A stretch of DNA of 22,618 nt from a virus. Made by a program: the position numbers and the translations under genes. The stretch is from IMG/VR virus record IMGVR_UViG_3300032069_000056, positions 1 to 22,618 of that record. One strand, 5' to 3'. The notes beneath the pieces were generated by a model, which was not told the origin of the DNA, did not search any database, and saw only the letters and a list, made by a program, of their open reading frames with translations. Shown here one piece after another: positions 5,370-21,571 of this stretch (position 1 is the first letter of the stretch; each line of letters opens with the position of its first letter).

Positions 5370-5741
5370 ATGACTAACAAGCAGAAACTCGCAAAAGAAA
5401 ATAACAAGTTGTGGCAAGAGATTTGTCTGGGATTATGGGGCGACAAATGTTTAATCTGCGGACAATCGCCAATAACTTTTCACCATTTTATTATCAAAAG
5501 CAGAAACGGATTGATGATTTATGACGAGCAAAATGGAATCCCGCTTTGTCAGAAACATCATTACATAATTCATTTCAGTAGCAGTCCATCAGAAGTTCAT
5601 CGATTGGTTCAGATAATCCGGGAGAAAAAAGAACCCGACTGGTGCAAATACATTGACCACAAAGAAAAAATACACAAGGATAGTTTCAAGACAATCAAAT
5701 GGTTAAAACAAGAAAATAAAAGATTAAGGAATTTATTATGA
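5370..5741 (+). CDS. HNH endonuclease-type protein
   Basis: A 123-aa protein with a beta-beta-alpha metal finger: structural Cys27/Cys30 (CLICG), the HH pair His38/His39, Asn55 (EQNGIPLC), then Cys60 and the HH pair His63/His64 followed by His68. These match the HNH nuclease pattern with an extra C4-like zinc site. The C-terminus is a basic helix. Free-standing HNH proteins near terminase genes are common in phages, where they can nick DNA and assist packaging; here the terminase lies 2 kb downstream. It is also possible that this is a mobile free-standing homing nuclease. The next gene overlaps by ATGA. Confidence 0.8.
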   Translation: MTNKQKLAKENNKLWQEICLGLWGDKCLICGQSPITFHHFIIKSRNGLMIYDEQNGIPLCQKHHYIIHFSSSPSEVHRLVQIIREKKEPDWCKYIDHKEKIHKDSFKTIKWLKQENKRLRNLL

Positions 5742-7069: not shown

Positions 7070-7234
7070 ATGAAAACCGGCGCACTTACTCTTTCTCGTT
7101 GGCAAAAAGATAAAAGCACTCAAGAAGGAGAGTGCCCCTGGTGTAAAGTAAAAGGATTTTGGGGATATTATATTGATGGCAGAAGACACTACCGGCTTTG
7201 TAAGTGGTGCGGAACCCTACAGAAAATAAAATGA
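7070..7234 (+). CDS. small zinc-ribbon protein (54 aa)
   Basis: A 54-aa product with a clean four-cysteine ribbon: Cys22-x2-Cys25 (CPWC) and Cys44-x2-Cys47 (CKWC), joined by an aromatic strand pair (GFWGYYIDGRRHYRL). The fold is typical of small zinc ribbons that bind nucleic acid or stabilise a partner protein. It overlaps the next gene by ATGA and is one base from the previous one. The specific role is unknown. Confidence 0.6.
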   Translation: MKTGALTLSRWQKDKSTQEGECPWCKVKGFWGYYIDGRRHYRLCKWCGTLQKIK

Positions 7235-7383
7235 TTTGTGAAGATAACAAAATTAGAGACATCGTAAAAGTAGACAGAGCATTGGCTTGTTCGTTTCAAG
7301 GCGGTGAATTACATTGGTTTGGAGATGGCATAGGTTATGTGGAATTAAAAAAAGTCGTTGATTTAAGAAAAAATGGAAACTAA
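7231..7383 (+). CDS. small hypothetical protein (50 aa)
   Basis: A 50-aa product beginning MICEDNKIRDIVKVDRALAC with a strand-rich middle (ELHWFGDGIGYVELKKVV). It has two cysteines but no clear metal site. It overlaps the previous gene by ATGA and the terminase small subunit gene by 11 bp, which supports real translation in this compact operon. The family is not recognised. Confidence 0.45.
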   Translation: MICEDNKIRDIVKVDRALACSFQGGELHWFGDGIGYVELKKVVDLRKNGN

Positions 7384-7786
7384 AAAAAAAATTCAAAAAC
7401 ACCCAGGGGGAAGACCAAAAAAGACATTAGATAACCTGCCAAAGAATTGGAAGGATATAATTTTGAAAATTAAAAAAGAAGGAGGTTCGGATGTCGAGGT
7501 AAGAGTGGCCCTGAACATCTCGGTTGATTTATGGGAAAGATTTATCAAAGAGATTAAAGAGTTTTCCGAAACCATAAAAAAAGGAGATGACCTTTGTAAT
7601 GCGTGGTGGCTAAAAAAGGGCAGAACCAATTTAGAGAATAGAAAGTTCAGCGCGGTGCTGTGGTATATGAATATGAAAAACAGATTTGGCTGGAAAGATA
7701 AAAGCGAAGTAGAGGTTGGATTTCCAAAGAATTTAATTGATTTAATCAAAGGAATCAAAAATGACAAACCTCCCGAGCAAAAATGA
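7373..7786 (+). CDS. terminase small subunit
   Basis: Recognises phage DNA and starts packaging together with the large subunit. The 137-aa product has the features of small terminases: an N-terminal HPGGRPKK segment, a helix-turn-helix region (VEVRVALNISVDLWERFIKE, about residues 41-60), and the segment FSETIKKGDDLCNAWWLKKGRTNL followed by LWYMNMKNRFGWKDKSE. The run 'G...AWW...GR.NL....F....W...MKNRFGW.DK' is one I associate with this family. It overlaps the large-subunit gene by 26 bp, the usual pairing. No ribosome site is obvious; the ATG follows a run of A. Confidence 0.88.
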   Translation: METKKKIQKHPGGRPKKTLDNLPKNWKDIILKIKKEGGSDVEVRVALNISVDLWERFIKEIKEFSETIKKGDDLCNAWWLKKGRTNLENRKFSAVLWYMNMKNRFGWKDKSEVEVGFPKNLIDLIKGIKNDKPPEQK

Positions 7787-9158
7787 AATAGAGGCCTTTC
7801 AAAAAAGAATAACAGAAGACCCGATCTGGTTCAGCGAAGAAGTATTGGGTCCTAAGCTATGGGAAAAGGAAAAAGAGATTTTATTGTCAGTAAGGGATAA
7901 TCGGGTAACGGTGGTAAGGAGTTGCAATGCTTCGGGAAAGAGTTTTACGGCCGCCAGAGTAGCGAATTGGTGGCTGGTCGGGCATACAAATTCGGTGGTG
8001 CTGACAACCGCACCAACGTGGAAGCAAGTCAAAGAGATTTTATGGCGGGAGATTAAGGATTCTGTTGCCGGAAAGGGAATCTATCCCGCAGATGCAGTTT
8101 TACAAACAGAAATACATTTGGACGACAAATGGTTCGCCCTGGGAATCTCAACCAACAGACCTGATCAGTTTCAGGGATTTCACTCAAAAGATTTATTGGT
8201 AATCGCCGACGAAGGTTCGGGAATAGCAGATGTAATCTTTGAGGCGATTGACGGATTGACTCCCGAAAGAATTTTAATCATTGGAAATCCATTGAGAAAT
8301 TCGGGAAGGTTTGCGGATGCATTCAAAGACCCGGCAGTAAAGAAGATTCATATCTCGGCATTCGATACTCCGAATCTCAAAGAAGGAAAAGTCCTGATTC
8401 CCGGGCTGATAACCTTGGAGGATGTCGAAGGATTCAAAAGCAAGTATGGAGAGGTTAGCGATGTTTATGGCGTTAGGGTATTGGGAGAGTTTCCGAAAGC
8501 GGAAGCAGAGAGCTGGATCGGGCTGAATGAAATCGAATCAGCGATGAACAGAGACCCGGTTGAGCAGCATACTGAAAAGATAATGGGAGTTGATACTGCG
8601 CGCTTCGGAGACGATAGAACCGTTTTGCAGGTCAGGCAGGGAGACAATTATGGAAAAAAGATTGTTCTTGTAAAGAAAGACGCACCGCAGATTGCAGGGC
8701 AGATTATCGTCTTAGCTACCGAAGAAAAAATAAAGGCAACGAATATCAAAGTTGACGTGATTGGCACGAACGGGTTATCGGTGGTTCATCTTTTGAAATC
8801 GGAAGGTTGGGATGTGACGGAAGTCAATTTTGCAGAGTCCGCACAGAACCCAATAAATCAGGAAGTCCAGTATGCGAATCTAAGAGCTGAGTGCTATGCG
8901 TATTTCAAAGAGAGTTTAAAAAACGGTTCACTGCCCAAAGACGAAGATTACTGGGAAGCGGCCAACATCAAGTATTCCTACAACCGCAAAGGGCAGATTC
9001 TTTTGGAGAGCAAGGACGATATGAAGAAAAGAGGACTGCCTTCGCCCGATGTTGTTGATGCCTGTGCTATCAGTTGGGCGCCGATAAGAAGTAAATCAAG
9101 AATTACCCAGTCGGGAAGCGGGTATAAACCGCTGTTTCCGGAGATGGGGAGCTTTTAG
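7761..9158 (+). CDS. terminase large subunit (packaging ATPase and nuclease)
   Basis: The DNA-packaging motor, 465 aa. The ATPase domain has a Walker A-type loop CNASGKS (Lys60), a Walker B LLVIADE with Asp150 and Glu151, and the coupling motif IIGNP (175-177). The C-terminal RNase H-like nuclease has GVDTARFGDD (Asp278), a second acidic residue near VDVIG (Asp332), and the final SPDVVDACA (Asp430/Asp433). All three acidic positions of a headful-type nuclease are therefore present. Length is normal. It is preceded by the small subunit with a 26-bp overlap and followed after 4 bp by the next gene, within one long transcript. Capsid-side partner: the portal at 10498. Confidence 0.95.
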   Translation: MTNLPSKNEIEAFQKRITEDPIWFSEEVLGPKLWEKEKEILLSVRDNRVTVVRSCNASGKSFTAARVANWWLVGHTNSVVLTTAPTWKQVKEILWREIKDSVAGKGIYPADAVLQTEIHLDDKWFALGISTNRPDQFQGFHSKDLLVIADEGSGIADVIFEAIDGLTPERILIIGNPLRNSGRFADAFKDPAVKKIHISAFDTPNLKEGKVLIPGLITLEDVEGFKSKYGEVSDVYGVRVLGEFPKAEAESWIGLNEIESAMNRDPVEQHTEKIMGVDTARFGDDRTVLQVRQGDNYGKKIVLVKKDAPQIAGQIIVLATEEKIKATNIKVDVIGTNGLSVVHLLKSEGWDVTEVNFAESAQNPINQEVQYANLRAECYAYFKESLKNGSLPKDEDYWEAANIKYSYNRKGQILLESKDDMKKRGLPSPDVVDACAISWAPIRSKSRITQSGSGYKPLFPEMGSF

Positions 9159-12507: not shown

Positions 12508-13377
12508 GTGGAAAGCAACGAATTATCTTCATACAGGGATTTTATCGTTCGCAACCAGCAATATGCGAAACCAATATCCTGGGAGGAACTTCAGAACCAA
12601 ATTGAACAAGCAGGAATCTACCTTGCCGAGATTTATCCCGACCTTAATCCCTCTGGCAAGACAACCTCCGACCTGAAAGCGAAACTTATAAAAGAACTGA
12701 ATATAGGTTTCCTCTTAAAAAGATTGGATTGGGTGGTGACTATTGTCGCCGAGCATCCATATCCTGATTATATCGAGAAGGAATTGTTGCTCACCAATTC
12801 GGAAATAGGGACTTTCTCTGTTTTATTACTGGTGCCCGAAAAAGAACATCGTTGCGCGATAATCGGTCTGCACGGACATAGATACGATAATACCGGGTTC
12901 AGGGACAGGTATGGTGTGAAAGAGTGGCCAAAACAAGGATTTACGGTAGCTATGCCGACTTTTCGGGCAATGGGTTGCGATGCAACCGAGGAAATCATCA
13001 CTACGGAATTGGCTCTCAAAGGCTTTACCTTGATGGGATTGAGGATTTACGAGACATTAGTTCTGATAGAATACCTGAAACGCCAGCCCATCATCGACAG
13101 AATTGGAATTATGGGGCATTCGGGAGGCAGTGATGTGGCTTATCTGACTTCGATAATCAACCAGGACATAAAAGCACTGGCATTCGATATGTATCCTAAA
13201 CTATCTAACCTTTGCGAGGGAAGGATTCATTGCGAGACGATTCCAAGTCTGGCTGGATACGACAAGCAGATAAACGAATGGAAGTTTGAAATTCCTTTCA
13301 GGAAATGGGAATACAAGTATCCCAATGCCAAAGAGGAAATACTCGAATTTTTTAATAAGAATTTAAAAATTAACTAA
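12508..13377 (+). CDS. alpha/beta-hydrolase, serine type
   Basis: A 289-aa enzyme. The nucleophile elbow GHSGG places Ser205 as the catalytic serine, and LHGHRYDN (122-128) supplies the oxyanion-hole strand end, as in esterase and dienelactone-hydrolase-type alpha/beta-hydrolases. Possible acid and base residues are Asp227 (AFDMYP) and His241 (IHCETIP). The region after residue 241 is short and lacks an evident final strand and canonical His, so the triad is uncertain. The start is a GTG, 4 bp after the preceding stop. Between portal and scaffold, phages usually carry a prohead protease; none is visible in this window. This enzyme may be a cargo, an envelope-acting esterase, or a substitute. 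Confidence 0.78.
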   Translation: MESNELSSYRDFIVRNQQYAKPISWEELQNQIEQAGIYLAEIYPDLNPSGKTTSDLKAKLIKELNIGFLLKRLDWVVTIVAEHPYPDYIEKELLLTNSEIGTFSVLLLVPEKEHRCAIIGLHGHRYDNTGFRDRYGVKEWPKQGFTVAMPTFRAMGCDATEEIITTELALKGFTLMGLRIYETLVLIEYLKRQPIIDRIGIMGHSGGSDVAYLTSIINQDIKALAFDMYPKLSNLCEGRIHCETIPSLAGYDKQINEWKFEIPFRKWEYKYPNAKEEILEFFNKNLKIN

Positions 13378-14762: not shown

Positions 14763-14797
14763 GAGGAAACTAATTTTATCGGAAAGCGATAAAAATG
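14763..14797 (+). promoter_or_regulatory. hairpin-bridged ribosome site of the capsid gene
   Basis: A GAGGA purine core (14763-14767) lies far from the ATG at 14795, about 26 nt. Between them TTTATCG (14775-14781) pairs exactly with CGATAAA (14787-14793) around a 5-nt GAAAG loop. Folding this 19-nt hairpin reduces the effective gap to about 7 nt. Phage T4 genes 38 and 25 are known examples of such structure-assisted initiation. Confidence 0.5.
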
Positions 14798-16742
14798 GCT
14801 AATACACACTTTGGCATTAAATTTGCCAGTAAATGTGTAAAGAAATTCTACGAAGCCGCCGTTACCCCGAAGATTACCAATGACTGGTACGAGGGTTTTT
14901 AAACAAAAAAAGCCCCATTAGAGCTCTTTTAAAATTTATTGACAAGCTTTTTCTGTCAATCTATAAGATTTGATTTAGTAATCTTGACTACCATTTCAGG
15001 ACAACTTCTTAGAAGATGATGATAGGCACAATGATTGGTTTTGTCAGGAAAAAGATATAGATTTTCTAATCTATTATCATCTTTAATCTCGTTGATGTGA
15101 TGGACTAATTCATTTTCAGTTAAATAACGATTGAGATATTTTTCTATTACCAATCTATGTTCACAAATATATCCTTGTTTGGTGGCAAATGGATGACGGG
15201 GTTGATAAATCATAATATATCCACTGGATTTTTTCCTTCTTCCACCCTTCCAATGACGACTTCTTTTACCTTCGAGCGCTTTACGGATATTATTTGTTGC
15301 TTCTTCAGAGCGGATAATCTTTTTATCCTTACACCAAGGAATGTTTCCTTTCCTAAATTCTGTTGCAGGAGATATATGTTGACCTTTCTTGAATTCGGTA
15401 AAAGAAGAAAGATGTTGTCCCCTTTTAATTCTCCACTGATTACCTTTTGAAAATAAGAATTTTGTCATAATCTTAAAGCCCACCTTAAGCGGTCAGCTCT
15501 CGGTGGGCAAGATAACTAATAAAATAAGCTGACCGCTATATCTTAATTATAGGTTAATAAAAAAAGTTTGTCAATAGATTAGAGTTTTAATCGCAAACGA
15601 GGCTAATTCGGTGAAAATCCCAATGCCAAAAATGGTAATGGATGATGCCGAGCTAAATTGCCGAAAGGCATAAATGTGTAACGACTATATACCTCGCCCG
15701 AAAGGGATAACATAGTCTGGACTTATGGGGAACCATAAGAATAACAAAATCGCAGATTAAAAACGGCAGAGCCGACAGACTGAAGATTAAGACCGTCAAT
15801 GAAAGTGGAGGTTTGCAGACTTATACTCCTGGGACAGCCCTTACTAAGGGCGCTTTGAGTGATACCGAAGCATCATTGATTCCTAATCAGAGAAAAGGTT
15901 ATTACTTTGAGATTGACGATGTGAATGAATTCGAGGACTACTGTGACGACCTGAAAGATAATATCCTTGACCAGAAGGTCAATGAGCTTTACGAAGCCAT
16001 TGATGCTTATGTTCTGGCGTTGTATACCGATGTTGCTTCTGGAAACAGGGTCGGAGTAGACCTTGTGGGAACAATGACGGTATCGGCTGCTGGAGCTGCT
16101 ACTGGAACTAGTTTCGTTGCCGCTTGTGCCGGAAGGGGCATAAAGTTTACGGCTGCCGGAACTATGTGGTACAGGGTGCTTAGCTATGACAGCGCGACAG
16201 CCTTGACCTTGGAGGATGATAAGGATGACGAGTCTACCCATTTTGATGCCGGAGCGCAAGCTGCCAATACTGCATATAGGATTGAAGCCGTGACTCCTGT
16301 TGAGGTTACAAAGACTAATATCTATGCCAAGATCGTGGCATTAAGAACTAAACTTGATGCCGTAAAGGCACCGAAAGCGAATAGATGGCTTGTGGTCAAT
16401 AGTTCGGTTGCCGGTCTCCTGCTTCAATCCGCCGAACTCATACCTGCGGTTGCTACCGCTTATGAGGAAGTGGTTAAGAACGGGAATATCGGAAGAATTG
16501 CCGGCTTCGATGTTTACGAAAGTGAACAGATAAGCGGCACCGATAGTTCTACTGCGGGTTTGCATATTCTCGCTGGGCATATTTCTTGGATGACATTTGC
16601 TTCTGCATTTGTTGCATCCACAATCGAGGAAGATTTGCCGGGAGAATTTGGCAAGGCCTACAAAGGTCTTAACTGCTACGGAGGAAAAGTTATCGATGTA
16701 AGAAGAAAGATGGCGGCAGAATTGTTCTGTTACACAGCATAA
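14795..16742 (+). CDS. major capsid protein, P22-like, split by a group I intron (join 14795..14896, 15753..16742)
   Basis: Forms the shell of the head. Exon 1 (34 codons) begins MANTHFGIKFASKCVKKFYE and ends NDWYEG. Exon 2 resumes QIKNGRADRLKIKTVNESGG and runs 329 codons. The spliced protein is 363 aa, starting with the N-arm and ending in YGGKVIDVRRKMAAELFCYT. The YEGxIKN join and the LQTYTPG strand fit the N-terminus of P22 gp5-like coats. Residues about 140-214 look like an inserted small beta domain (VGTMTVSAAG...TLEDDKDDE). Without splicing, translation stops after 35 residues (TAA at 14900-14902). Exon 2 alone would lack the N-arm. The ribosome site is bridged by a hairpin. The downstream gene starts 105 bp later. 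Confidence 0.88.
14938..14960. other. hairpin at the 3' end of the antisense endonuclease gene
   Basis: ATTGACA (14938-14944) pairs exactly with TGTCAAT (14954-14960) around a 9-nt loop. On the minus strand it contains the stop codon of the endonuclease gene and is followed by AAATTTT, so it could be a weak terminator. On the plus strand it could be part of the intron P2 region. Confidence 0.4.
14939..14967 (+). promoter_or_regulatory. possible sigma70-like promoter inside the intron, plus strand
   Basis: TTGACA (14939-14944), a 17-nt spacer and TATAAG (14962-14967) match the consensus at 11 of 12 positions. It would read through the intron toward exon 2. It overlaps the hairpin and the end of the antisense gene, so it may be fortuitous. 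Confidence 0.3.
14956..15468 (-). CDS. intron-encoded HNH homing endonuclease, antisense to its host gene
   Basis: Probably cuts intronless capsid genes to spread the intron. From the ATG at 15468 the protein is 170 aa. The N-terminus has repeated basic motifs FKKGQH, FRKGN and the WCK-type turn (about 20-45), a DNA-binding array common in HNH homing enzymes. The C-terminal catalytic part has EHRLVIEKYLNRYL and then VHHINEIKDDNRLENLYLF, the HNH_3-type H-H-N pattern. An in-frame GTG at 15483 is a less likely start; AAGGTGG at 15480-15486 favours the ATG. It has its own consensus promoter upstream (15546-15574) and a structured leader. Opposite orientation to the intron is unusual among group I intron endonucleases. 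Confidence 0.85.
   Translation of the reverse strand: MTKFLFSKGNQWRIKRGQHLSSFTEFKKGQHISPATEFRKGNIPWCKDKKIIRSEEATNNIRKALEGKRSRHWKGGRRKKSSGYIMIYQPRHPFATKQGYICEHRLVIEKYLNRYLTENELVHHINEIKDDNRLENLYLFPDKTNHCAYHHLLRSCPEMVVKITKSNLID
15478..15537 (-). promoter_or_regulatory. pseudoknot-capable leader of the endonuclease mRNA
   Basis: On the minus-strand RNA an 11-bp perfect stem forms between 15537-15527 (AGCGGTCAGCT) and 15498-15488 (AGCTGACCGCT). Its 28-nt loop contains GCCCACC (15508-15502), which pairs exactly with GGTGGGC (15484-15478) downstream. That downstream strand is most of the ribosome-binding site AAGGTGG. The resulting H-type pseudoknot would hide the ribosome site. The pairings are direct; the control is inferred. 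Confidence 0.5.
15546..15574 (-). promoter_or_regulatory. exact-consensus sigma70 promoter of the endonuclease gene
   Basis: On the minus strand TTGACA (15574-15569), a 17-nt spacer and TATAAT (15551-15546) match the bacterial sigma70 consensus at all 12 positions. The predicted start near 15539 lies just before the 5' arm of the 11-bp leader stem, about 70 nt upstream of the endonuclease ATG. It points away from exon 2. Confidence 0.75.
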
Positions 16743-16847: not shown

Positions 16848-17750
16848 ATGACACAGGAAGAAAAAAAATTACAAAACGAAAGAGACGAAAAAACAGCCGG
16901 ATTCCTGAAAATCGGCTATTCTTGGCTATCAGAGTTATTTAATAGTATTACCGATAAAATAGTCAAGGCACTTAATAAGGACATTTATAAGATACACATA
17001 GACAATCAGGTAGAAACCGATTTGAGCAAGATAGAAAAGAGCTTGGATAAGATAGCGGCAAAGGATACCAAACCGATAATCAATGTTGATGCCAATAATT
17101 TTGAATTTTTAAAATCAATCAAGAAAATCGAGGGCATTGATGGCGAGAAAGGGGAGAAAGGTGATAAGGGAGACAAGGGCGATCAGGGAGAAAAGGGAGA
17201 GAAAGGAGATACAGGTAGGGATGGAAAGGATGGAAAACAGGGGAAACAAGGAGAACAAGGAATGCTCGGAAAGGATGGTAAAGATGGCAAAGATGGAAAA
17301 AATGGGAAAGATGGAAAGGATGGCAAACCAGCAACATCAAAAGAAGTCATTGCCGCACTCAAAAAAGATATGCTCGATATTTCACATATAAAAGGATTGG
17401 AACAACATCTTAAAGTTTCCAGACAGCGAATGTATGGCGTCGGGCCGAGTGGTGCATTAACTACTGTTGCTCACGATAGCTCGATTACCGGGGACGGCAC
17501 TCCTGGAAATCCCTTGAGGGCAGTGGCAGGGACTGGAGGCGGTGCACCTACAATAGAAACTCCTGTTGGAGACGTAGACGGGGCAAATACCGCCTATACG
17601 ATTACTGCCGCCACTACACATATTATTCTTTTAAATGGTGTTGAATTGGAAGAAGGCGCAGGAAACGACTACACCATATCAGGGACAACTCTTACAATGC
17701 TTTATGCCCCTGAAACTGACAGTAAATTAAGACATCGTTATTGGATATGA
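16848..17750 (+). CDS. collagen-like fibre protein
   Basis: A 300-aa trimer-type surface protein. Residues 1-95 are helical and charged, likely the attachment and trimerisation part. Residues 96-161 are 22 uninterrupted Gly-X-Y triplets rich in GEK, GDK and GKD, the charge pattern that stabilises triple helices without hydroxyproline. Residues about 197-235 contain YGVGPSGALTTVAHDSSITG and GDGTPGNPLRAV, a segment common in phage tail fibres and appendages. The C-terminal domain (about 236-300) is a beta-type tip with ILLNGVELEEG and YTISGTTLTMLYAP. The next gene overlaps by ATGA. A neck, fibre or head-decoration role is inferred. Confidence 0.8.
   Translation: MTQEEKKLQNERDEKTAGFLKIGYSWLSELFNSITDKIVKALNKDIYKIHIDNQVETDLSKIEKSLDKIAAKDTKPIINVDANNFEFLKSIKKIEGIDGEKGEKGDKGDKGDQGEKGEKGDTGRDGKDGKQGKQGEQGMLGKDGKDGKDGKNGKDGKDGKPATSKEVIAALKKDMLDISHIKGLEQHLKVSRQRMYGVGPSGALTTVAHDSSITGDGTPGNPLRAVAGTGGGAPTIETPVGDVDGANTAYTITAATTHIILLNGVELEEGAGNDYTISGTTLTMLYAPETDSKLRHRYWI
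17133..17330 (+). repeat. triplet repeat encoding Gly-X-Y
   Basis: Sixty-six codons encode 22 collagen-type triplets. The 3' half is the most regular, with near-identical GGNAARGAT-type units from about 17270 to 17322, prone to expansion and contraction by slippage. Confidence 0.85.
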
Positions 17751-20700
17751 AAAAAATACTAATCTTTTGCCTTGAACATCCATTCGTAATTATATTCTCC
17801 GTAATAATTATCGGAGGTTTGACTTTTAGTGGAATAGTTTTGGTAAAGAATGGCAAAATTACTTTCGGCGCACCGACACAGATTAGGATTGCCCAGCAAA
17901 CTCTCTGGACAACAGATTTAGTGCCAGATGTAGATAATGCCGTGGATTTGGGTTCAAACAATAAAACAATCAGGAACGGTTATTTTGGTGGTTTGATGAC
18001 CTCTGGCAGTTTTGTCGGGGATTCCACTGCTTCAATCTCCGGCACAATCACCTTCGGCAATCTCATTTCCTGCGATACCATTGATAGTTCTGCCACCGGG
18101 CTTTTATCCTGTGGCACTGATGCTAGCGGGACAGGTGCCGCGATAGTTCATAGTTTAATGGATTCTGATTGGCATGGAGATACCTTATTGGCTTCCGTTT
18201 CGCAGGGTTCATTGATTGTCGGCAATGCAACCCCCAAATGGTCAGAACTTGTAATAGATGTTGTCTCGGGTTCGTTTTTACAAAGCGATGGCACAACTGC
18301 TTATTGGAATGATTATCAGGACCAGAATACCACTTATACCGCAGGGGATAATTTAACCTTGACTGGAACCGACTTTGATGTTGATGACCCGTTTGCCGTT
18401 GTTCACGCTTCCGCTTCAGGGGATTTCTCAACACCTTCTGGGCAGATAACTTCCGCAAGCATCGGGACTTTGGAACTTATAACCGACTTGGATATTTCAA
18501 GCTATACGAACCTGACCGCAGGAGACCATATAACTTTAACCGATGATGACTTGGATGTTGATGACGATTTTCTTTTAAATACTGGGGACACTGGCACTTG
18601 GGTTTCTCTAAGTGCTGACTTTCAGGCATTACAAGGGGTTATACCTTCTTTGAGTGCGACTACGACTTTTACTGGTGCTGGTTTAGCGGATTGTGATACT
18701 GCCGCCACTTCCAAATTGTTATGGTCTGATACAGGGGTTTTTTCTTGTGGCACAGATTCTAATTCCGTGACTGCGGCTTCTGACCCATTAAGTTTAATAG
18801 GCACTACACTTTCAATAGACACGGCTTCGGCTGGAGACAATGGTGTTCTTTCAGCCGCAAACTGGTCAACCTTTAACAATAAATTAGACCAAGCGGCTTC
18901 TACTTCATTTGTTTGGAGTCCCACTACTACTACTAACGCCTTTGAATTAAATGGTTTGGCTTCAGTTTCAGGATTAGCTACTTTTTACGGAGGCATACTT
19001 TCTTCCGGCAGTTTGACGGTTGATAGCACTGCTTCGCTTTCAGGGACAATAACTTTGGGAAATTTAGTTAGCTGTAATACCATTGATTCTGATGCTACCG
19101 GACTTCTGGCTTGCGGGACTGATGACGATGTGCCTGAAGTTAGTGATTTTGCCGCTTTGGTAGGCGGTCAAGGAATAGACAACAATTCAGGAACTTTGGA
19201 CTTTGATTTGACCGAATGGGATAACTTGGTTTGGGCATCGGGAAGCCAGACATCTCTAACTTTAACTGTAGACCTATCAGGAACAGACCCAGTAATAGAA
19301 TTCGGAAGTGATATTTTAAGAACTTCGGCATCTTGGAGCATAGACGATGCGGCTTCGCTTTCGGGAGCTTTTAATGTCGGAAGTTTAAAGTCCTGCGATA
19401 CCATAGACACGGATGCAAATGGACTTTTCGCTTGCGGCACGGACGCTACAGGAGGAGGTTCGGGGATGGTCACTCATGGCCTCCTTTCAGACGAATGGCA
19501 CAATGATGTTTCAAATGCTTCCGCTTCCGCAGGAGCTTTGATTTATGGGGCTGGAACAACTTGGACACCTCTGGCTGTCGGTGCTTCAGATTCATTTCTT
19601 TTTAGCGATGGAGTAAATCCTATTTATAAGTTAGACCCCGATATAGCATCAATGAGCATTACAGACCTTAAAACTTCAACTTTAACTGGAACACTAACAG
19701 GAGCTTTAACTGGTAATGCCTCTACTGCAACAAAGTTAGCTGCCAATGGCGCGAATTGTAATGCGGGAGAATATAATTTAGGAGTAGATGATTCTGGTGC
19801 TGCAGAAACCTGCACAGATGCCACTACTGAAATTAACTCTGTAATAAACGGAGCAGGTGGAACGAACTTAACTTGTTCTGCTCAATCTTGTGATGTAGAT
19901 GACGCCTTCCTTTTAAATACTGGAGATACTGGAACTTGGGCATCTTTGACTGTAGGGTTTAGCGCAAATCAGGCAGAGATAACTTCCCTGTCGGCTACAA
20001 CATTATTATTTCCCGCAGACTCTATAACCGAAGCCAACATCAATTTTGCCACTACTTGCAATTCTTCATCAAAACTTTACATTGATAGCGGAAACTTAGC
20101 TTGTAACGCAGACGCAACAGGCGGAGCGGGTGGCGAAGTTCACGGACTTTTAAATACCGATTGGCATACAGATGTCCTGCTTGCCTCTGTTTCAGAGGGA
20201 AGTGTAATCGTTGGTAACGCCACTCCCAAGTGGGCGGCAGTAGGAAAAGGAGCATCGGGAAGTTTTCTTGGAGGAGATGGAACTGATACTTTATTTACTA
20301 CTAATACAGGAAACATAGACATTTATGGTACTGCATCTGTTTCTGGGGCGTTTACCCTGGGAAGCAATCTTTCTGGGATAGGTGCATCTTTGTCTGATGA
20401 CTTGGACCTTGCTGACTTGAATGTTACTTCAGCGAGCATAGGAACTCTTTATGCTACGACTTTCAGTCCTACGTCTTTATCTGTTACCCACGTTTCGGTT
20501 TCTGATGACTTTGAATCCTTATACAGCAATCTTTCATCTGTGAGTATTACCAATACCTTCACTCTTGCCGGTGACCAACTATGGAATACCTCCAATTCAA
20601 GTAATCTTATGTCAAGCCACTCTTGGCAATTCTCTACTGGAACTATGGAATTTGACAATGGGGCATCTTTATCGGGAACCCTTGATTTGAATAATGTAGG

Positions 20701-21571
20701 ACTGATAACGAACATCGGAGATGCGAATACTGACTTTATTTCTGGGGGTGGATTAAATATTGCAGGAACATTCGGCTTGGCTACCGACCAGATATTTACT
20801 ACTTCTAATACCGGGAATGTCTTATCAAGCCATAGTTGGCAATTTTCAACAGGACAAAGCGTGGAATTTGACGGCACGGCTTCAACTTCGGGAAACTGGA
20901 CTATAAATAATGGTGTCTGGGATATGTCGGCAATCGGTTCATTCTCTTTAGGAACAAGCCAATTATTCACGACAAGCAAAACAAGTGAAGTTTTTTCAAG
21001 TGCCAGCTGGACACATACGACAGGGGCATTATCGTTTGATAATGCGGCCTCTACTTCGGGGGCGTGGACAATCAATACTGGTGCGTGGGACTTTACAAAT
21101 GCTACTTCACTTAAAGTTCCAACGGGTACGGCACCGAGTATAACCGCAAATGGGCAAGTCGCGGTAGATACTACTGGTGGGCAATTCTTATTCTATTCAG
21201 ATGAAGTAAATGTCTTAATGGCGACAAAATCTTTCGCTTTTAATTATGGTTCTGGCTCATTTGATTTGACGAATAACCAGCAATATGTACAATTTCACGA
21301 ACCAATTACCATAACAGCCATTGATTGTTTTGTAACCAGTGGGACTTCGGCACAGATTGAGATTGAAGAATGTGATGCTAATGGAGCGAACTGCGCTACG
21401 ACTGACGCGGCAATTACTTGTACGACCTCCGATGTTGCTGATGATGGCTCTCTTTCAAACGCTTCAATAGACGCATTGGATTGGGTGATAGCTTCAATTT
21501 CACAAGGAGATGTTTCGGGAGACGTTGATTCGGTTCATATAAATGTCCACTTTAAATATACAGCACAATGA
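17747..21571 (+). CDS. giant modular fibre/adhesin-like protein with N-terminal anchor
   Basis: A 1274-aa protein from the ATG at 17747, which overlaps the previous stop by ATGA. Residues about 8-34 are one strong hydrophobic segment (FVIIFSVIIIGGLTFSGIVL), an unusual start for a virion fibre. The rest is Ser/Thr/Asp/Gly-rich beta-repeat sequence. Three Cys modules of the form SCDTIDSSATGLLSCGTD recur at about 18041, 19043 and 19363. Three modules of the DWH...NATPKW...SDG type recur at about 18148, 19470 and 20138. Near the end, SSHSWQFSTG-type units repeat (from 20581). The final domain (about 1170-1274) has paired cysteines (IEECDANGANC). Attachment to the host is likely; membrane display is also possible. 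Confidence 0.78.
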   Translation: MKKILIFCLEHPFVIIFSVIIIGGLTFSGIVLVKNGKITFGAPTQIRIAQQTLWTTDLVPDVDNAVDLGSNNKTIRNGYFGGLMTSGSFVGDSTASISGTITFGNLISCDTIDSSATGLLSCGTDASGTGAAIVHSLMDSDWHGDTLLASVSQGSLIVGNATPKWSELVIDVVSGSFLQSDGTTAYWNDYQDQNTTYTAGDNLTLTGTDFDVDDPFAVVHASASGDFSTPSGQITSASIGTLELITDLDISSYTNLTAGDHITLTDDDLDVDDDFLLNTGDTGTWVSLSADFQALQGVIPSLSATTTFTGAGLADCDTAATSKLLWSDTGVFSCGTDSNSVTAASDPLSLIGTTLSIDTASAGDNGVLSAANWSTFNNKLDQAASTSFVWSPTTTTNAFELNGLASVSGLATFYGGILSSGSLTVDSTASLSGTITLGNLVSCNTIDSDATGLLACGTDDDVPEVSDFAALVGGQGIDNNSGTLDFDLTEWDNLVWASGSQTSLTLTVDLSGTDPVIEFGSDILRTSASWSIDDAASLSGAFNVGSLKSCDTIDTDANGLFACGTDATGGGSGMVTHGLLSDEWHNDVSNASASAGALIYGAGTTWTPLAVGASDSFLFSDGVNPIYKLDPDIASMSITDLKTSTLTGTLTGALTGNASTATKLAANGANCNAGEYNLGVDDSGAAETCTDATTEINSVINGAGGTNLTCSAQSCDVDDAFLLNTGDTGTWASLTVGFSANQAEITSLSATTLLFPADSITEANINFATTCNSSSKLYIDSGNLACNADATGGAGGEVHGLLNTDWHTDVLLASVSEGSVIVGNATPKWAAVGKGASGSFLGGDGTDTLFTTNTGNIDIYGTASVSGAFTLGSNLSGIGASLSDDLDLADLNVTSASIGTLYATTFSPTSLSVTHVSVSDDFESLYSNLSSVSITNTFTLAGDQLWNTSNSSNLMSSHSWQFSTGTMEFDNGASLSGTLDLNNVGLITNIGDANTDFISGGGLNIAGTFGLATDQIFTTSNTGNVLSSHSWQFSTGQSVEFDGTASTSGNWTINNGVWDMSAIGSFSLGTSQLFTTSKTSEVFSSASWTHTTGALSFDNAASTSGAWTINTGAWDFTNATSLKVPTGTAPSITANGQVAVDTTGGQFLFYSDEVNVLMATKSFAFNYGSGSFDLTNNQQYVQFHEPITITAIDCFVTSGTSAQIEIEECDANGANCATTDAAITCTTSDVADDGSLSNASIDALDWVIASISQGDVSGDVDSVHINVHFKYTAQ
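18041..19450 (+). repeat. three diverged Cys-module repeats
   Basis: Units at 18041-18130, 19043-19126 and 19363-19450 encode SCDTIDSSATGLLSCGTD, SCNTIDSDATGLLACGTD and SCDTIDTDANGLFACGTD. The proteins are close but the codons differ widely, so the copies are old or have been kept apart at the DNA level. Confidence 0.7.
18148..20281 (+). repeat. three diverged DWH modules
   Basis: Units near 18148-18295, 19470-19612 and 20138-20281 encode related segments that start H-x-LLxxDWHxD (DEWHND in the second) and end SGSFLxxDG. The first and third share SVIVGNATPKW or SLIVGNATPKW exactly or nearly so, again with many synonymous differences. Confidence 0.7.

Follow-up and report, generated by a model that had tools for sequence, protein, structure and literature searches.

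The 22,618-base virus record IMGVR_UViG_3300032069_000056, analysed over its whole length and called the window here, very probably (about 0.93) carries a mobile group I intron in its major coat gene, together with an antisense HNH gene whose product is predicted to spread it. This reading is drawn from features visible in the sequence, namely a split reading frame, an empty site in a sibling phage, a ribozyme match, the HNH gene, a promoter match and the recurrence of introns at the same site, and from them splicing, the specificity of the HNH enzyme, homing and the timing of expression are predicted.

The split coat gene and its empty site

The coat gene and its insert are laid out as follows.

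14795 to 14896, plus strand: coat (major head protein) exon 1, 34 codons ending in NDWYEG; the last exon base is U14896
14897 to 15752, plus strand: group I intron, 856 nt, placed by the RF00028 match, the L028 empty site and same-site introns; the last intron base is G15752
15753 to 16742, plus strand: coat exon 2, from QIKNGRADR to the stop; PHROG 267 major head protein

The frame that opens at ATG 14795 runs for 35 sense codons (MANTHFGIKF...NDWYEGF) before TAA at 14900-14902, and joining 14896 to 15753 preserves the coat frame. The exact boundaries come from a sibling phage, L028, which was found through a terminase search (terminase segment 78% identical) and whose coat gene, at 7118-8209, is a single open frame encoding a coat 65% identical to the window's (TBLASTN E=3e-156). 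When 14897-15752 is removed from the window, the alignment to L028 has no gap at the join and the host gene is restored exactly; because of this gap-free alignment the insert is set at 856 nt, between 14896 and 15753. Splicing after 14899, which would add F, and after 15755, which would drop Q, are both disfavoured by the same alignment. As far as the YEG motif, exon 1 aligns with L028 and with the coats of PHROG 267, and the N-terminus of the joined protein can be aligned position by position with PHROG 267 coats of annotated phages across ITNxxYEG/EI, where the slash marks the insertion point within conserved codons of the coat. The downstream part of the protein matches the PHROG 267 major head protein at E=5e-33 and the joined form at E=2.5e-34; among solved structures its best relative is 8e16 gp6 (E=1e-12), and no Pfam match was obtained for the coat.

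An earlier note on this DNA had described a coat frame that breaks after 34 codons and resumes in frame 856 nt later, with boundaries at 14896 and 15753, and the two frames and the L028 alignment bear this out. Its claim that an unspliced message stops after 35 codons, such that coat production depends on splicing, agrees computationally with the TAA, and the intronless relative it proposed for comparison is provided by L028. The truncated capsid call that it anticipated from TTG 15813 does appear in the program-made list of open reading frames, which opens the downstream coat frame there (309 aa). The same note considered the joined protein a normal P22-type coat N-arm; the P22 label is weak, since the coat belongs with PHROG 267 and true P22 coat appears only at E=0.42.

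Intron fold and ribozyme match

The helices of the predicted fold, all on the plus strand, are listed below.

14893 to 14915, plus strand: P1, GGGU(UUUU) at 14893-14900 with (AAAA)GCCC at 14908-14915; the terminal U of exon 1 pairs with G as a wobble (U14896.G14912) at the splice site
14933 to 14966, plus strand: P2 5' arm, 32 of 34 pairs with 15547-15580
15547 to 15580, plus strand: P2 3' arm, pairing with the P2 5' arm
15598 to 15739, plus strand: catalytic core, P3-P9, from the RF00028 match and helix pairing
15598-15602 with 15692-15696, plus strand: P3
15608-15613 with 15646-15651, plus strand: P4
15617-15620 with 15640-15643, plus strand: P5
15652-15653 with 15676-15677, plus strand: P6, with P6a at 15659-15670
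15683-15688 with 15712-15717, plus strand: P7
15697 to 15706, plus strand: P8
15722 to 15739, plus strand: P9

The group I model RF00028 matches 15549-15739 on the plus strand, which is the coat strand, at 36.4 bits (E=2.2e-7, 1151 bases searched with permissive filters); the alignment spans the full model (1-253) and stops 13 bases short of the 3' splice site. Because this score lies below the curated cut-off of 50 bits, the intron is missed by routine Rfam scans, and a scan at the gathering threshold reported nothing for it. Searches with RF00028 over whole records miss even the window's own intron and are hence uninformative. The Rfam check proposed in the earlier note was therefore positive by E-value and short of the cut-off in bits.

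All helices from P1 to P9 can be written with standard pairs, as the earlier note had stated for the major pairings (P1 8/8, P2 32/34, P3 5, P4 6, P5 4, P6/P6a, P7 6, P8 3, P9 7). Unaided RNA folding of the insert with its open reading frame deleted recovers P1, P2, P4, P5, P6a, P8 and P9; P3 and P7 cross, and therefore a nested fold cannot display both. The core is compact, without the insert between P7 and P3 that is found in the same-site introns L128, L237, L260, L261 and L264 described below. P10, a pairing of the P1 loop with the 3' exon, is common in group I introns without being universal, so its absence from the window and L260 does not exclude group I membership; it is present in L128, L237, L264 and L261 (5 pairs). 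The 34-nt inverted repeat was also considered as transposon ends and rejected, the repeat being P2 and the insert encoding no transposase.

A second candidate guide, GCUCUU, can be read by eye just 3' of P1 and would select the same 5' splice site. Two candidate guides for one 5' splice site, GCCC and farther on GCUCUU, occur both in the window (14897-14925) and in L128 (2192-2215), and L237 and L260 have only GCUCUC as guide.

The antisense HNH gene and its expression signals

The loop of P2 holds an HNH gene that is antisense to both the coat gene and the intron.

14956 to 15483, minus strand: HNH homing-endonuclease-like gene, 175 codons from GTG 15483; the likelier start is ATG 15468 (170 aa)
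15546 to 15574, minus strand: sigma-70-type promoter for HNH, TTGACA-17-TATAAT (12/12), inside the P2 3' arm
15479 to 15541, minus strand: HNH 5' leader, with hairpin GCCCACC/GGTGGGC over the ribosome-binding site
14901 to 14931, minus strand: candidate terminator 3' of HNH, a weak hairpin and U tract (-9.5 kcal/mol)

The protein carries an HNH domain (Pfam HNH_3, PF13392, E=8.9e-7, 28.9 bits against a cut-off of 24.8) and matches phrog_20891 at E=1.6e-27. Directly upstream of its reading frame on the minus strand, the exact sequence TTGACA-17-TATAAT is present a single time in the window, and 100 shuffles of the window did not produce it. A mirror on the plus strand within the P2 5' arm (TTGACA-17-TATAAG, 14939-14967, 11/12) was rejected as a promoter, being explained by P2 complementarity. 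The group I call of the earlier note is supported computationally; the note overlooked the opposite-strand gene with its promoter, and it did not see that introns recur at the site. A second, free-standing HNH-type frame lies at 5370-5741 on the plus strand (phrog_8048, E=6.8e-7; phrog_22514, E=1.5e-6).

The predicted leader would start near 15539, and its 7-pair hairpin contains the HNH ribosome-binding site. Its 5' end, AGCGGTCAGCT, is complementary to the hairpin loop and could form interlocking stems, a score that none of 1000 shuffles reaches (0/1000). Because such stems were not seen among the HNH relatives, no conserved riboswitch is claimed, and the two stems are better treated as alternatives, as 3 loop nucleotides seem unlikely to bridge a stem of 12 pairs. 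The terminator scan made no call at the 14901-14931 hairpin. In phage T4 the ribosome-binding sites of I-TevI, I-TevII, I-TevIII and mobE are hidden by an RNA hairpin, and mobE belongs to the HNH family (PMC2988022). The window resembles T4 in the hidden ribosome-binding site and, for mobE, in the enzyme family; however, the T4 homing endonuclease genes are sense-oriented except segD, whereas the window gene runs antisense and has a dedicated sigma-70 promoter (PMC2988022).

What would an opposite-strand gene accomplish in this position? An own host-type promoter could uncouple synthesis of the nuclease from the late coat operon, and antisense placement may spare the folding ribozyme the passage of ribosomes. 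A more speculative and very improbable idea is that antisense transcription acts as a timer, in that early RNA made by the host polymerase from the perfect promoter, complementary to the P2 loop and possibly P1, would hold back intron folding and coat mRNA splicing for as long as antisense transcription continues. The predicted transcript would not be complementary to P3-P9, because its start lies downstream of the catalytic core. Were the timer to operate, the intron would be a regulator of late capsid production.

Recurrence at the coat site, alternatives and context

At least five distinct other coat genes (L128, L237, L260, L261 and L264) are split at the same YEG/EI codon boundary, with exon 2 starting at the homologous codon in each; a further one, L271, is a cut near-copy of L260. 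L128 was found by a scan with exon 2 only, L237 by a DNA-pattern search for the shared 3' intron end, and L260, L261, L264 and L271 by a DNA pattern combining the 5' exon end and the guide sequence. The first alignment scan used a pattern spanning the splice junction, which cannot detect intron-bearing coat genes; the coat surveys being pattern-based and cut at a set number of matches, counts of occupied sites are lower bounds. Among the 82 coat relatives listed by exon-2-only retrieval, 79 are uninterrupted at the site, 2 stop at contig ends and 1 (L128) is split. A single-sequence scan of viral contigs for coat relatives returned none, an exact search for the window's core elsewhere gave no match, and a population of near-identical alleles with and without the intron was not found.

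RF00028 scores the L128 intron at 71.7 bits (E=9e-18), L237 at 58.1, L264 at 53.1, L260 at 48.9 and L261 at 35.6, such that L128, L237 and L264 lie above the 50-bit cut-off. Exon 1 ends in GAGGGU and the intron in G in the window and its same-site counterparts, and every complete same-site intron holds an HNH gene. In L128, with an insert of 752 nt, the gene is antisense as in the window and its product is 38% identical to the window HNH. The introns of L237, L260, L261 and L264 are 901-1058 nt long and carry a sense-oriented HNH that differs from the window's, placed in the P8 loop by the Rfam alignments of L237, L264 and L260. These four are 71-86% alike over their first 200 nt and show two-sided compensation in 22 of 58 predicted pairs; the window, L128 and the sense-HNH introns share little beyond core motifs. 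One site is thus occupied by two arrangements, an antisense HNH in P2 (window, L128) and a sense HNH in P8, and from this recurrence the YEG/EI boundary appears to be a favoured landing site for such introns.

The sense-HNH cores are 70-78% identical to introns in other genes of Staphylococcus, Pseudomonas and other phages, a likeness which suggests that such introns have moved not only from phage to phage but also from gene to gene. In introns of Staphylococcus, Pseudomonas and Flavobacterium phages, the cores are ~70-78% identical to L237 and L128 over 130-190 nt; those introns and that in terL of Streptococcus thermophilus phage 2972 occupy other host genes and sites than the window's. The gap in 2972 terL scores 53.3 bits with RF00028 and shares only ~30 nt with the window core, in the P7-P9 region.

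Capsid introns, one with a bottom-strand endonuclease, are already known, and the window adds another. The report on mycobacteriophage LittleE describes a group I-like intron of ~820 bp in capsid gene gp13 with a bottom-strand endonuclease, gp14, its splicing proven by RT-PCR and N-terminal sequencing (PMC3706429). As described there, LittleE resembles the window in having a similar-size intron in the major capsid gene, an opposite-strand endonuclease, an exon 1 ending in U and an intron ending in G; it differs in its HK97-like Omega/LittleE capsid, its insertion site and its enzyme, which is called LAGLIDADG-like with an HNH-related C-terminus, whereas the window enzyme is HNH (PMC3706429). 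In contrast to the window's site, no recurrence across distant phages is reported in the accessible part of that source (PMC3706429). Nuclear rDNA L2066 group I introns carry homing endonuclease genes in sense or antisense orientation (PMC9548176). They are like the coat site in combining a single insertion site with either orientation, but they lie in nuclear rDNA and encode His-Cys box enzymes with spliceosomal introns, whereas here phage coat genes hold HNH enzymes (PMC9548176).

By analogy with the LittleE capsid intron, we hypothesize that late coat mRNA self-splices and that the nuclease drives the spread of the intron. The intron would fold through P1-P9 within late coat mRNA, an external guanosine would attack after U14896, and the exons would be joined with loss of 14897-15752, G15752 being its last base. 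The spliced message would give a 363-residue coat and the unspliced message only a 35-residue peptide. The HNH gene would be transcribed separately, its sigma-70 promoter giving a message whose leader is able to hide the ribosome-binding site. In co-infection the HNH product would be expected to cut or nick coat alleles that lack the intron, close to the insertion site, and their repair would copy the intron in.

How else could the arrangement be explained? The alternative deserving most attention, although unlikely, is that the intron splices and the antisense HNH is a free-standing gene that recently landed in the P2 loop, either a passenger or a gene that homes elsewhere. In favour of this, the HNH gene comes with a promoter and leader of its own; the second type of intron at this site holds a different HNH, placed in another loop and oriented the opposite way; and no group I intron was detectable near relatives of the window's HNH in the viral contigs scanned. 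However, those scans were insensitive, missing also the window's own intron, and a related antisense HNH (38% identity) occupies the corresponding position of the same-site intron in L128, a phage clearly distinct from this one, which suggests a kept association.

That the insert is decayed and does not splice, with a defective phage genome or a coat made from the internal start TTG 15813, would fit the sub-threshold Rfam score and the missing P10. It is nonetheless very improbable: all core helices are intact and both exons open, exon 1 is kept in nearly all coat relatives and differs from L028 mostly at third codon positions (14 of 21), and the internal start would lose the conserved YEG/EI region. 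An assembly chimera or sequencing artefact, to which a single metagenomic contig is exposed, is hardly credible for an insertion that is base-exact against L028, in frame and furnished with intron features, and that has equivalents in contigs from other metagenomes. The mobile intron with its antisense HNH is therefore preferred.

Group I introns have a recurrent landing site here, within the N-terminal motif that is most conserved in a widespread family of phage coats. Two intron types in divergent phages, with HNH genes in different loops and strands, offer a natural comparison for the capture and exchange of homing enzymes, and for the way in which a phage copes with an intron in the gene it expresses most heavily. 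Such introns escape the Rfam cut-off, and a coat gene in a metagenomic phage can therefore be recorded as truncated.

Among bacterial-genome contigs, only L190 and L191 carry relatives of this coat; both come from MAGs, one labelled Candidatus Woesebacteria, a weak lead towards a candidate-phyla-radiation host. Between the portal-side genes and the coat, a 289-aa frame (12508-13377, plus strand) reads like an alpha/beta hydrolase (GHSGGSD), although neither Pfam nor PHROG gave a match. Immediately after the coat gene, 16848-17750 (plus strand) encodes a collagen-like GxK/GxD repeat protein with matches to phage tail fibre families, and it is followed by a 1276-codon frame (17741-21571, plus strand) with repeated TASVSG/SASLSG-like segments that is probably a fibre or surface protein.
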